54,622 nt of DNA. It comes from Cellvibrionales bacterium (GTDB lineage Bacteria > Pseudomonadota > Gammaproteobacteria > Pseudomonadales > JAHEIH01). The stretch lies in NCBI GenBank assembly GCA_024639455.1, contig JAHEIH010000028.1:8749-63370 (forward strand), read 5' to 3'. Every line of letters starts with the position of its first letter. Within the stretch, counting starts at the first letter, position 1. The notes under the pieces were generated by a model that saw only the letters and a list, made by a program, of their open reading frames with translations, was not told the origin of the DNA and did not search any database. A program made the translations under genes and the position numbers. Below, piece by piece: positions 43,209-48,356 of this stretch.

Positions 43209-43748
43209 ATGCTGCATACCGATAGCGCCGCCCTTGTCATTATTGATGTCCAAGGCAAGTTAGCCCATACCATGCATGACAAAGAAGCACTTTTCAGTGG
43301 CCTTCAAACGATGGTGAAGGCTGCCAAACTACTTTGTCTCCCAATCCTCTGGGCCGAGCAGTTGCCGCAAAAATTGGGGCCCACCATCCTAGAATTGAGC
43401 CAACTGCTGAGCGATGAAACCCCTCTGCCTAAATCCTGCTTCAGTTGCGCCGGCAATGCGGAATTTAACGAAGCCTTGGCCCGCAGCGGACGCAAACAGT
43501 TATTAGTGGTAGGTATTGAAGCACACATCTGCGTCACTCAATCGACGCTGGAATTTTTAGCGCGTGGCTATGAAGTGCATTTAGTGTGTGACGCCATAGG
43601 CGCGCGCAACTCGGGTAACAAAGCCATCGGACTTGCACGCTGTGAACGCGCTGGCGCTGTACTGTCTAGCTGCGAGATGGCCTTATTCGAATTAATGAGA
43701 GAGGCGTCACACCCACAATTCAAAGCCATTCAAGGTCTCATCATTTAA
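43209..43748 (+). CDS. Isochorismatase-like cysteine hydrolase
   Basis: The 179-residue hydrolase has the family's triad: Asp13 (VIIDVQGKL), Lys75 (LPKSCFSC) and Cys108 (GIEAHICVTQ). It is close in size to YcaC/YecD-type hydrolases, rather than true isochorismatase. Substrate unknown; amides or ureido compounds are typical. AAGGAG lies 7 bases before the ATG. The gene shares a 4-base convergent overlap with the hybrid kinase gene. Confidence 0.9.
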   Translation: MLHTDSAALVIIDVQGKLAHTMHDKEALFSGLQTMVKAAKLLCLPILWAEQLPQKLGPTILELSQLLSDETPLPKSCFSCAGNAEFNEALARSGRKQLLVVGIEAHICVTQSTLEFLARGYEVHLVCDAIGARNSGNKAIGLARCERAGAVLSSCEMALFELMREASHPQFKAIQGLII

Positions 43749-45580
43749 CTTACCGATGGGTCAGCGCTATCGCCCAGATAACGCGACAAAATAGCCTCAA
43801 ACTCCGAGGTCTGAATGGGCTTGGAAATCATGTCGTCCACCCCAAGAGTTTCAAAACGACGGCGCACGTCCTTATCGAGTGAGCCGGTCACTGCAACCAC
43901 ATGGGTTTCATTCCACATTTGCTCTTGGCGCAGCCGTTTGATAAATTCATAACCATCCATGATCGGCATGTAATAATCGACTAATATCACATCGCAGCGT
44001 GGCATCTTTTTTAACTTACCAAGTGCTTCTGCACCATCATGGGCGATCACAATGTCGACCTGGTAATCACGCAACAACATTTCCAGCAAACGGATATTGT
44101 TGTCATCATCTTCTACAAGTAACACACATGGCAGGCTGTTATCCGATGTTTGAAGCGACTTATTGGCGGTTTCTTCATGGGCTTGCGCCGCATCATGATT
44201 ACGCTGTAAAGCCCTGTCTCGAGCGAGCTCGACAGGGATTTTAACCAAGAATTGAGTGCCGCGCGTCGCATCGCTTTTGACCTCCATAGAGCCACCCAGC
44301 ACAATCAATAGTTGGTTCACAATAGCCAACCCTAGACCAGCGCCCCCTCCCTCTCGTGTGAGACTCATATCCTCCTGCGTAAAGGGGGATAGGTAGTAGT
44401 CTAGCTTGGCCTCATCGATGCCTATACCGGTATCGACTATGGAAACATTCAGTTCTCGTTTTCCCGTTCCGAGGGCAATGTCATGGATGTGTACAGCCAC
44501 ACGCCCGACATGAGTATACTTAATGGCATTATCACAGAGATTATGAACGATCTGCCCAAGACGATTACCGTCCACATACAGCCACGGCAGGTGAACGTCT
44601 TGCTCCCAGTGAAATTGCAGCTCTTTGCTCTCAGCTTTGCTACGCATCTTGTGTTTAATTTCGCTGAAGATATTTGCGACATTCGTATCAATAGGGGACA
44701 GTTCAAGGCTGTGTGCCTCGATACGCGTGATATCGAGGATGTCATTCGCTAATTCCAAAAGGCGTTTATTACTATCGAGGGCAATTTCAACAAAATGGCG
44801 GGACTTTTCGTCTAGTGGCGAGTCCAACAATAAATTGAGCATGCCATTGAGCCCATTCAATGGGGTGCGAATTTCGTGGCTCATATTAGATAGAAATTGT
44901 GTTTTTACCTTGCTAGCCTGCTCAGCTTGAATTTCAGCGCGACGTAATTCGTCATTGGTCTGAGCCATGTCAACAAGAATACTTTGCAAGGACTGCTGAT
45001 GTCCTTGGCGAATACTAGTAAAGGCAAACACCACGAACATCACATAGGCTAATTGCAGAATCTGATGTACACGTGTTATTAAGGCAACTTCATCGATGAT
45101 CATCTCGCGCTGCCATGCACTATCATCAATATACATAAAAAAGGCAAACGAGCTTAAAACCAACACGACAGCAAGGGTAGTGATCTTAAGATCTCGCAAA
45201 ATAGTCGTCGCGACCAAGAGCACTATAAGCCAGGCGATACTTGGGTGATCCACACCACCACTGGTTAAAATCGCGACATTGGCACTGCCGTGCATCCCCG
45301 CCAGTGCTAACCAATTGGCAAGCATTTTATTCGGGGTATAGCTATTCAGATACCAAGCACCTAAAAAAAGCGACGTGGCGGTTAAATAGGTTGCGAATAA
45401 CAACGGGTAGTTAAACGATAGCAAAATGAGTATACCGGTAACCGCTCCACAAGAAATATAAAATTGATTGTTGATGCCTCGCGCTACAGATCTATCTAAC
45501 GATTGAATCGCCTCGGGTATGCTGTCATGTGAAACCGACATAGTGCTGCTGGCCATGTGCTTTGTGTCACGTTTATCCAC
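43745..45580 (-). CDS. Membrane hybrid histidine kinase with C-terminal receiver
   Basis: From the GTG at 45580 (GGAG upstream) the kinase has 611 residues. About six membrane helices occupy residues 35-200. HisKA carries [14 protein letters not shown] (about 235), HATPase carries DTGIGID and GAGLGLAIV, and the receiver has VILVDYYMPIMDG. It lies 3 bases behind the response-regulator gene with degenerate HD-GYP, so the two probably form one phosphorelay. No HPt domain is seen. It is a different protein from the hybrid kinase at 34876-36609. Confidence 0.93.
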   Translation of the reverse strand: MDKRDTKHMASSTMSVSHDSIPEAIQSLDRSVARGINNQFYISCGAVTGILILLSFNYPLLFATYLTATSLFLGAWYLNSYTPNKMLANWLALAGMHGSANVAILTSGGVDHPSIAWLIVLLVATTILRDLKITTLAVVLVLSSFAFFMYIDDSAWQREMIIDEVALITRVHQILQLAYVMFVVFAFTSIRQGHQQSLQSILVDMAQTNDELRRAEIQAEQASKVKTQFLSNMSHEIRTPLNGLNGMLNLLLDSPLDEKSRHFVEIALDSNKRLLELANDILDITRIEAHSLELSPIDTNVANIFSEIKHKMRSKAESKELQFHWEQDVHLPWLYVDGNRLGQIVHNLCDNAIKYTHVGRVAVHIHDIALGTGKRELNVSIVDTGIGIDEAKLDYYLSPFTQEDMSLTREGGGAGLGLAIVNQLLIVLGGSMEVKSDATRGTQFLVKIPVELARDRALQRNHDAAQAHEETANKSLQTSDNSLPCVLLVEDDDNNIRLLEMLLRDYQVDIVIAHDGAEALGKLKKMPRCDVILVDYYMPIMDGYEFIKRLRQEQMWNETHVVAVTGSLDKDVRRRFETLGVDDMISKPIQTSEFEAILSRYLGDSADPSVS

Positions 45581-45583
45581 GCG

Positions 45584-46819
45584 TCATTCTCCGTAAGCGT
45601 CGTCAATAGCAAACTTAATATTCGCCGGTAGCGATGATTGAAAGTACTTCAGCCGGCTAATAGTCTGTTGGGTAAAAATATGTCCTTTTGGCAATAACAA
45701 GATATTGTTTGTCGTGTACACATCTTCGACTAATACCATGCCAGGCTCAATATCATCCAAGTTGTAATTACCCGGCAAGTGGCTCGTTTCTAATAGCCTA
45801 GGCTGTTTAAGGATGAGGTCGAGAATTTCGATACTATAGCGACTGCCTCTATAGCGCGTAATCTCCCCCATCGCTTTTTGGTGGGAGGCGGGCTTGTCGA
45901 AATAACGCCCCTCTAGCATTCGAAAATAATCCCGCACGATGGCGATAATTTGCGCGCCCATACTAGGGACGGGCGTTTTATCGGTCAACGGATTGGCGGC
46001 GGTATATTGCTCTCTTAAAATTTTAGCGACGTCATTCAAATGGTTCGCCGGCGATAAAATTTGGCTGGTAATTTCGGATTGCTTTTTAAATTCGGTAATT
46101 TGTCCTGCCGACATTTTTCTGTATGGAATTTGGCACAGCGTTTGCGGCAGTCCGATAAACCCGAGCTCGCAAAATAGCCCTGCCAAACCTACGCTGTAGA
46201 CGAACTCTGAATTACTATCGATTTCGATGGCGATATTGCGAGAAACTAGGCTGACTTTCTTAGCAAACTCTCCATTAATATTAGGGTGAGAACTGAGCAG
46301 GTTAAACAAAACATTAAGGTTGGCGACATGGGTGCGCTCGAGCTTTTTTAACGCCGCTCTAATTTGCTTTGTGCGCAACTGTACCTTTTCATCCAAACTG
46401 GCATTGGCTTCTTCGAGCGCCGTCCGAAGACGTTCATTTTCAAAAAACAATTCGGTGTGCTTAGCGCCCTTTTCGACCACCGACACGAGGTGTTCAGTAT
46501 CCCACGGCTTTTGCAGAAAACCACTAATCGCGCCGCGATTCACCACATCGAGAGTGGCGTTCATATCAGCATAACCTGTGATTACCACACGATAGCATTC
46601 TGGACGAATGTCATTTACACGAGCAAGAAAATCCTGGCCGCTCATAATGGGCATGCGCATATCAGAGATGACGACGTGAGGTCGATTGCCTTCCAGGAAG
46701 GCCAATGCTTCTCGAGGATCTATAAAACCCTCCACAGCGAAGTGATGACGTAGCAGGACTCTGCGTAACGAATTAACGATTTGTTCTTCGTCATCCACTA
46801 CTAAAATTAAGGGTTTCAT
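45584..46819 (-). CDS. Response regulator with a degenerate HD-GYP-type output domain
   Basis: The 411-residue protein begins with a receiver domain (phospho-Asp53 in VVISDMRMP), then a coiled coil (about 130-170) and an HD-GYP-like domain (about 175-350). The HDIGKIG motif has become CELGFIG, and the GYP loop is replaced by REQYTAANP, so metal and c-di-GMP catalysis should be lost. Homologous pseudo-HD-GYP regulators are known to act by protein contact, e.g. HnoD in NO signalling. The ATG at 46819 gives MKPLILVVDDEE; an ATG at 46843 is possible. It precedes a hybrid kinase gene by 3 bases. Confidence 0.88.
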   Translation of the reverse strand: MKPLILVVDDEEQIVNSLRRVLLRHHFAVEGFIDPREALAFLEGNRPHVVISDMRMPIMSGQDFLARVNDIRPECYRVVITGYADMNATLDVVNRGAISGFLQKPWDTEHLVSVVEKGAKHTELFFENERLRTALEEANASLDEKVQLRTKQIRAALKKLERTHVANLNVLFNLLSSHPNINGEFAKKVSLVSRNIAIEIDSNSEFVYSVGLAGLFCELGFIGLPQTLCQIPYRKMSAGQITEFKKQSEITSQILSPANHLNDVAKILREQYTAANPLTDKTPVPSMGAQIIAIVRDYFRMLEGRYFDKPASHQKAMGEITRYRGSRYSIEILDLILKQPRLLETSHLPGNYNLDDIEPGMVLVEDVYTTNNILLLPKGHIFTQQTISRLKYFQSSLPANIKFAIDDAYGE

Positions 46820-46977
46820 GGTTTGGTCATTCAAAGTTAACATCCTTTATTAACACGGTAACTATAGTCAATTCCTGCTATGCGAGGGAAGTAATATTGT
46901 TACGATTATTGCCTCTACATTCATTTTAGGTTCAGCCTTTTTGACTATGCTTAAGCCATCATTGAAAGGAGAATTCT

Positions 46978-47634
46978 ATGAACAAATTAACCACCCTTGC
47001 TGCGATTGCTTCATTAACACTCGCTGGTTGCAGCACGACAGACCCCTACACAGGCGAACGCAAAACCAGCGAAGCTAGCAAGGGGGCGGCTATTGGTGCT
47101 GCGGCTGGAGCCGTTTTAGGCGTATTGGTAGGGGACAACAAACGCAGTGCTGCCAAAGGTGCCATCGCCGGTGCCGCGATTGGCGGAGGTGTTGGCTACT
47201 ATCAAGATCGCCAGGAAGCCGAACTGCGTAAACGCTTGGCAAGTACGGGTGTCGGCATTGCCCGAGACGGGGACAACATTCGCTTGGTTATGCCATCCAA
47301 TATCACTTTTGAGGTCGATCGTTTCGATGTGCGGCCAGGGTTTTACAACACCCTCGAAGATATCGCTTTGGTACTGCGCGAGTACAATCAAACCCAGATC
47401 AACATCTATGGCCATACCGACGCTACAGGTGGCGCTGAATACAACCAAGTACTAAGTGAACGTCGAGCGCAAGGGGTGGGAGATTTTTTGGTATCTAATG
47501 GTATTTCTGCCCAGCGAATTGCTAACTTTGGCTATGGCGAGCAATACCCTATCGCCAGTAATGACAATGCCGAGGGTCGTGCTCAAAACAGACGGGTAGA
47601 ATTAGAATTGGTACCAATAGCACAGAAGAAATAA
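46978..47634 (+). CDS. OmpA-family lipoprotein with glycine-zipper region (YiaD-like)
   Basis: The 218-residue lipoprotein has the signal peptide MNKLTTLAAIASLTLAGC with lipobox LAGC (Cys18). A Gly/Ala-rich zipper (about 35-80, GAAIGAAAGAVLG) is followed by an OmpA C-terminal peptidoglycan-binding domain (about 105-215) with IYGHTDATG and LSERRAQGVGDFLVSNGI. It should tie the outer membrane to the cell wall, as YiaD does. AAAGGAG precedes the ATG. Its 3' end meets a candidate small RNA transcribed in the opposite direction. Confidence 0.93.
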   Translation: MNKLTTLAAIASLTLAGCSTTDPYTGERKTSEASKGAAIGAAAGAVLGVLVGDNKRSAAKGAIAGAAIGGGVGYYQDRQEAELRKRLASTGVGIARDGDNIRLVMPSNITFEVDRFDVRPGFYNTLEDIALVLREYNQTQINIYGHTDATGGAEYNQVLSERRAQGVGDFLVSNGISAQRIANFGYGEQYPIASNDNAEGRAQNRRVELELVPIAQKK

Positions 47635-47736
47635 GCCATATCCTTATGGCTCTGCGTCCTTGCAGAACCCGCATCCTTGCGGTGGATAATCCTTTGAATC
47701 CTTGATGGATGTAATTAAAGGCGATCCATCGCATTC
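47624..47736 (-). ncRNA. Putative RsmY/RsmZ-like CsrA/RsmA-sequestering small RNA
   Basis: On the minus strand this 113-base stretch holds six GGA motifs, most displayed in hairpin loops, the hallmark of RsmX/Y/Z and CsrB/C RNAs. GCGA-TGGA-TCGC is at 47721-47732. Two further AAGGAT motifs lie in 47684-47704. CCGC-AAGGAT-GCGG is at 47669-47682, TCTGC-AAGGAC-GCAGA at 47651-47666, and AGCCAT-AAGGAT-ATGGCT at 47634-47651. The last is followed by TTATTTCTTC and can serve as a terminator. TATTAT at 47742-47747 is a plausible -10 box. No GacA-type TGTAAG-N6-CTTACA site was found upstream. Its length matches the 100-130 bases of RsmY and RsmZ. No protein fits this gap. Confidence 0.72.
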
Positions 47737-47774
47737 TCTCAATAATACTTTGGTACTAACACGAAAGGATGACA

Positions 47775-48356
47775 ATGAACTTTTGGGAAGAAAAATACCA
47801 GCAAGCACAGACAGGCTGGGAGCGAGGACAGATTAATCCCGCGTTTGACCTGTGGCAGGGGTTTAACGATTTAACCCCAGGCACAGTCTTGATTCCTGGC
47901 TGCGGCCGTTCGCCAGAGGTACGCGCTTTTGCCGCCCGTGGTTGGCAGGTGATAGCCGTCGATATGGCCCCTTCTGCGGTAGAGTTTCAGCGCCACGACA
48001 ACCAACTGTATGGGGATAGCGTCATCGTGGTAGAAGCCGATCTATTAGCGTGGCAGCCCGAACAGATCTTTGATTTAGTATATGAACAAACCTGCCTTTG
48101 TGCACTTAACCCAGAACAGTGGCAACAATACGAACAACGCTTGGCCTCCTGGGTCACCCCGGGCGGCCAACTCGCGGCGCTGTTTATGCAAACCTACAAA
48201 GACGGCGGCCCACCTTTTCACTGTGAGTGGGGCGACATGAGGGAGCTGTTCACAACAACACGTTGGCAATGGCCCGAACAGGAACCTCTGCAGTCTGAGC
48301 ACCCGACAGGCATTCACGAACTGGGCATACGTTTAACGCGATTAGGGGCTGTTTGA
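47775..48356 (+). CDS. Thiopurine S-methyltransferase-like SAM methyltransferase
   Basis: With the ATG at 47775 (AAAGG 6 bases upstream) the protein has 193 residues starting MNFWEEKYQQAQTGWERGQ. FWEERY/W-type N-terminus, VLIPGCGRSPEVRAFAARGW as SAM motif I and IAVDMAPSAVE as motif II are characteristic of the TPMT (PF05724) family. In bacteria these enzymes methylate thiols, selenium or tellurium compounds. Its start region may overlap the promoter of the small RNA on the other strand. Confidence 0.88.
   Translation: MNFWEEKYQQAQTGWERGQINPAFDLWQGFNDLTPGTVLIPGCGRSPEVRAFAARGWQVIAVDMAPSAVEFQRHDNQLYGDSVIVVEADLLAWQPEQIFDLVYEQTCLCALNPEQWQQYEQRLASWVTPGGQLAALFMQTYKDGGPPFHCEWGDMRELFTTTRWQWPEQEPLQSEHPTGIHELGIRLTRLGAV

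Follow-up and report, generated by a model that had tools for sequence, protein, structure and literature searches.

A putative Csr/Rsm-type decoy RNA from a gammaproteobacterial lineage apparently without GacA

The window analysed here, a 54,622-nucleotide stretch of a contig from a Cellvibrionales bacterium, contains an intergenic gap whose minus strand is likely, with a probability of roughly 0.77, to specify a Csr/Rsm-type decoy RNA. In the proposed mechanism, the minus strand of the gap would give rise to a non-coding RNA of ∼100 nt, CsrA dimers would bind its three ANGGAX hexaloop hairpins and probably also two linear ANGGA sites, and this titration of CsrA would release the mRNAs that the protein represses. 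Transcription of the RNA would have to be driven by a regulator other than GacA, because GacA appears to be absent. The class is known: what would set this member apart is that it has no Rfam match and that it comes from a lineage apparently devoid of the usual activator.

The gap measures 134 nt from the stop codon of the lipoprotein ORF to the TPMT-type ORF (Table 1). Both flanking genes are carried on the plus strand, so that the array, read on the minus strand, runs opposite to both, and the last base of the lipoprotein stop codon is also the final base of the outermost hairpin. On the minus strand the motif ANGGA occurs six times, starting at positions 47729, 47703, 47694, 47678, 47661 and 47645, as against once on the plus strand. 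Three adjacent and perfect hairpins present AAGGAY as their entire loop, which is the published high-affinity CsrA/RsmE form (PMC4005645). According to the NMR work on RsmE/RsmZ described there, the target bound with high affinity is an ANGGAX hexaloop that sits immediately on a stem and has its N and X looped out; all three hairpins have this form in both species discussed below. Repetition of A(N)GGA, with several copies in the loops of short hairpins, is characteristic of the decoy class and is found here as six motifs, three of them in ANGGAN hexaloops. Single ANGGAN hairpins are at chance level in the source genome: those with the hexaloop on a Watson-Crick stem of at least 4 number 14 in 600 kb, both strands included, and six control loop patterns give a similar 11 to 30. 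The array, on the other hand, is above chance. When the 134-nt gap was shuffled 20,000 times with its dinucleotides preserved, no shuffle reached six ANGGA and none reached three ANGGAN hexaloop hairpins, the maximum being one. The gap is the sole place with six ANGGA starts in 90 nt among 509,244 nt of strand (the window plus a 200-kb sample of the genome, both strands), and the positions of the 14 hairpins comprise no triple and one close pair, a statement for the 600 kb that is drawn from the listed positions, the dedicated scan for triples having covered the first 200 kb. An earlier sequence-only reading of this DNA had placed the three hairpins correctly and had assigned all six motifs to hairpins; the six motifs are present, two of them as linear sites.

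Table 1. Features of the gap and of the genes that flank it, in positions of the window.
Feature	Position	Strand	Remarks
YiaD-type OmpA lipoprotein ORF	46978-47634	+	5' neighbour of the gap
Putative Csr/Rsm-type decoy RNA	47634-47733	-	∼100 nt, predicted ends; motif array, kept in G001
Hairpin AGCCAU-AAGGAU-AUGGCU, then UAUUUCUUCU	47634-47651	-	G001: GCCAC-AUGGAU-GUGGC, U-A to C-G compensated, without U-rich tail
Hairpin UCUGC-AAGGAC-GCAGA, C-G closing pair	47651-47666	-	G001 loop AUGGAC
Hairpin CCGC-AAGGAU-GCGG, C-G closing pair	47669-47682	-	G001 loop AUGGAU
Two linear ANGGA motifs (47699-47703, 47690-47694)	47690-47703	-	G001: ACGGA and AAGGA, 1 base further from the array
5' hairpin GCG-ATGGAT-CGC with the first ANGGA	47721-47732	-	Not conserved in G001
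Conserved block at promoter position	47734-47763	-	24/30 identical to G001; TATTAT at 47742-47747
TPMT-type methyltransferase ORF	47769-48356	+	3' neighbour of the gap

The protein that a decoy of this class presupposes is encoded in the same genome. The source genome specifies a CsrA of 64 amino acids that scores 118.9 bits against a cut-off of 73; it is the single Pfam match, has a canonical sequence and shares 49 of 57 residues with a solved CsrA, as counted on the printed alignment. Another locus of this genome bears two ANGGA hairpins on the minus strand (L094, ∼11138-11190 of contig C27), with loops AAGGAT and AAGGAG on stems of 6 and 8 bp. The hairpins lie in the gap that precedes a presumably dprA-like gene, and the second loop resembles the Shine-Dalgarno sequence of this gene, a predicted CsrA-repressed target.

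The evidence for conservation comes from one relative, G001, the only other genome of the same genus searched and 75% complete. G001 harbours the array in the equivalent gap, flanked by the same two genes. It was found via its TPMT gene, and a DNA search with the gap misses it: at E values up to 1 that search gave matches in 28 of 56 genomes, one being the source gap itself, and the other 27 (E of at least 0.03, 15–39 aligned bases, none in G001) are read as chance. A scan of genome contigs returned the array in JALRIU, a MAG labelled 'Pseudomonadales bacterium' that we presume to be G001, as well as a distant Lautropia TPMT. The TPMT sequences of the two genomes are 64% identical, and their aligned DNA blocks 66% (the block that includes the gap) and 72%. 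Across the 48-nt array 41 positions are identical, and of the seven substitutions three fall on the free loop N, one per hairpin, two on linkers and two on a single compensated pair, U-A to C-G. All 13 pairs and the three ANGGA loops are preserved, the loops reading AUGGAU, AUGGAC and AUGGAU in G001. Random sets of seven substitutions left the 13 pairs and the three loops intact in 748 of 2,000,000 draws, a figure that stems from a single comparison with one relative and assumes uniform change. Shuffles of the two-row alignment gave 254/500, two rows being uninformative for such a test. Over the whole gap, five of the six motifs are conserved: the two linear ones are kept and the most 5' (47725-47729) is not. 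The free N of the loops, at 47644, 47660 and 47677 (3341-3384 of L063 in G001), has changed from A to U in all three cases together. The sequence-only reading had asked that the same gap be aligned in relatives and had staked its core proposal, a minus-strand RNA that titrates CsrA/RsmA, on the conservation of stems and GGA loops; with three hairpins and their ANGGA loops maintained through substitutions in G001, that putative RNA survives the comparison.

The same reading had gone further and defined a transcript of about 110 bases, whose ends are unsupported, as no promoter is scored and the terminator-like tail is not in the relative. Its -10-like TATTAT does exist at 47742-47747, inside a 30-nt conserved block, but no sigma-70-like site was scored on the minus strand at the locus, either in the source genome or in G001. 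The T-rich stretch that follows the last hairpin is real in the source genome, where the scan scores a single terminator-like site, with its stem at 47652-47633 and a T-rich tail; shuffles of the 601 bases scanned lead one to expect 0.4 such sites, which makes it weak evidence for an RNA end, and neither a terminator-like end nor a U-rich tail was found in G001.

The loops had also been held to fix the strand. Taken alone, pairing and loop constraint are strand-neutral, and it is what ANGGA signifies that assigns the array to the minus strand. Folding favours the plus strand, with z values of -4.8 against -1.9 for the minus strand in the source gap and fold energies of -39.3 against -31.7 kcal/mol in G001. 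Together with the orientation of the lipoprotein and TPMT genes, both on the plus strand, and the lack of a scored minus-strand promoter, this lends some weight to a plus-strand element, in which the hairpins would serve to stabilise the lipoprotein mRNA, to terminate it or to give the leader of TPMT its shape, while the minus strand stays silent. Such an element would have no need of a particular loop sequence, and yet the ANGGA core has been retained three times while N changes. Moreover, the rest of the plus-strand fold is unlike between the source genome and G001, and the plus strand of 47400-48000 shows no scored terminator-like site. We consider a plus-strand element unlikely.

A second alternative is that the array is an extragenic repeat, or a series of palindromes that matter at the DNA level, and bears its GGA loops by chance. 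What favours a repeat is the existence of another hairpin repeat with an ATGGAT loop, three copies of which occur in 600 kb of the source genome. However, the array is single-copy in that genome, both by DNA search and by a covariance model, R1, built from the source and G001 arrays and run up to E 10; its three stems differ in sequence, each being complementary to itself, and its position is kept in G001. A repeat is thus even less probable than a plus-strand element. The other repeat is intergenic, reads CGGCAGC-ATGGAT-GCTGCCG-TTTA and is located in L112 at ∼5815 and ∼6019 (minus strand) and in L118 at ∼12930 (plus strand); the L112 copies have a sub-threshold Rfam match only, to Ysr224 on the opposite strand. 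Finally, a 61-codon ORF (47549-47734, minus strand) is open across the array, but the idea that it yields a small protein is largely refuted and scarcely credible, given stops in the same frame just upstream of the array in G001 and a spread of the seven substitutions of 2, 2 and 3 over the codon positions.

The decoy RNA proposed here matches no Rfam family. None of 4227 Rfam families reached its gathering score anywhere in the window, and at E values up to 10 the sole match in 47500-47900 was to a snoRNA model and lay beyond the array; the covariance search recommended by the earlier reading yielded nothing for the locus. No covariance match places it in RsmX, RsmY, PrrB_RsmZ, CsrB, CsrC or TwoAYGGAY, the Rfam families of such RNAs. 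A PrrB_RsmZ match elsewhere in the source genome (20.2 bits, E 0.02, below the cut-off) was dropped: it falls on a hairpin that resembles a terminator and on the end of a gene, and control genomes match too. When R1 was run over 390 genomes of the order, with stricter filters that lose some weak matches, the source genome (G000) and G001 scored 101 bits each and three weak matches were added, with no strong match in the other 388. Among these 390 genomes the strong array is confined to the source genus. The best match outside the genus (L078, 27.1 bits) lies in genome G189, from another family of the order: the printed stretch at ∼1484-1660 has ten ANGGA, four of them in perfect hexaloops, and no Rfam match, and is read as a candidate CsrB-like RNA, which is counted in favour of the decoy reading. 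The remaining two matches are chance or unclear: one (L079) lies within a 393-codon frame and its printed stretch lacks ANGGA, and the other (L080) has two hairpins and one ANGGA.

The typical activators of such RNAs in Gammaproteobacteria are BarA/GacS and UvrY/GacA (PMC4682653). In the source genome, which is 99.5% complete, the best score against the UvrY/GacA model NF007018 is 82 bits, and in G001 it is 75, against a cut-off of 280. Across 42 genomes the model separates 29 that reach at least 217 bits, 24 of them above the cut-off, from 13 that stay below 175, the source genome and G001 included. Gene order tells a similar story: among the 12 gacA loci that score best, the set retrieved for this comparison, 10 have a uvrC match next to gacA, and no gacA stands beside uvrC in the source genome, where uvrC, with the start chosen, shares 8 bases with the end of the preceding ORF, probably murB. 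The kinase follows the same pattern. Of 23 genomes, 13 reach 600 bits against the BarA model, all of them among the 15 with UvrY at 217 bits or more, whereas none of the eight with lower UvrY scores does so; the model's own cut-off of 890 is attained by 0/23. The best BarA score in the source genome is 424 bits, from a match that does not cover the model's N-terminal part, and G001 has no match at E 1e-110. A BarA-like hybrid kinase with sCache_4 and a weak Hpt (L066, 374 bits against 890) was considered as GacS and rejected; a LuxR-type regulator, L072, lies ∼3 kb upstream on the same contig and scores 82 bits to the UvrY model, and in our judgement the pair is not GacS/GacA. GacA thus seems to be absent from the source genome.

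No GacA box (TGTAAG-N6-CTTACA) was found with up to 4 mismatches in 470 nt scanned at the source locus, and 500 nt of G001 contain one site at 4 mismatches; a looser pattern at 3 mismatches gives one site at the source locus and two in G001. With neither a box nor a GacA ortholog found, the locus does not conform to the GacA-activated RsmY/RsmZ type. The earlier reading had placed the RNA near several sensor kinases. At 43745-46843 on the minus strand, next to the lipoprotein gene, lie a hybrid sensor kinase and a response regulator that carries an HD domain and is NosR-like (312.6 bits, short of the 400 that the model requires); nothing was found that links them to the array.

A missing GacA is no argument against the decoy reading because Rsm RNAs independent of GacA exist, such as RsmW of Pseudomonas aeruginosa, an Rsm-type decoy with three of seven GGA in outer loops (PMC4950607). 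The array resembles RsmW in being a putative decoy without GacA activation; in contrast, RsmW is believed to originate from a 3'UTR and its genome has GacA, whereas the array is antisense to both neighbours and GacA was not found. With RsmZ, RsmY and RsmX of Pseudomonas it shares a small size, a number of ANGGAX loops carried by short stems and further GGA sites that are single-stranded, RsmZ of P. fluorescens being a 127-nt RNA with four stem-loops, a terminator and eight GGA motifs (PMC4005645); it differs from them in lacking an Rfam match, a GacA box and a detected GacA. Escherichia coli CsrB and CsrC and Pseudoalteromonas Pf1-Pf3 likewise repeat GGA, but with 9 to 25 motifs as opposed to six ANGGA here. 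Csr RNAs are described as usually without sequence conservation (PMC11882849).

If the decoy reading is true, it adds to this lineage an unannotated global regulator that is missed by every Rfam model. At about even odds, the lineage lost GacS/GacA and keeps, or re-invented, a CsrA decoy under a different activator, and the sponge would then be uncoupled from its supposedly dedicated switch. The coexistence of CsrA and a putative decoy RNA, apparently without GacA, raises the question of which alternative drivers may operate the Csr sponge.
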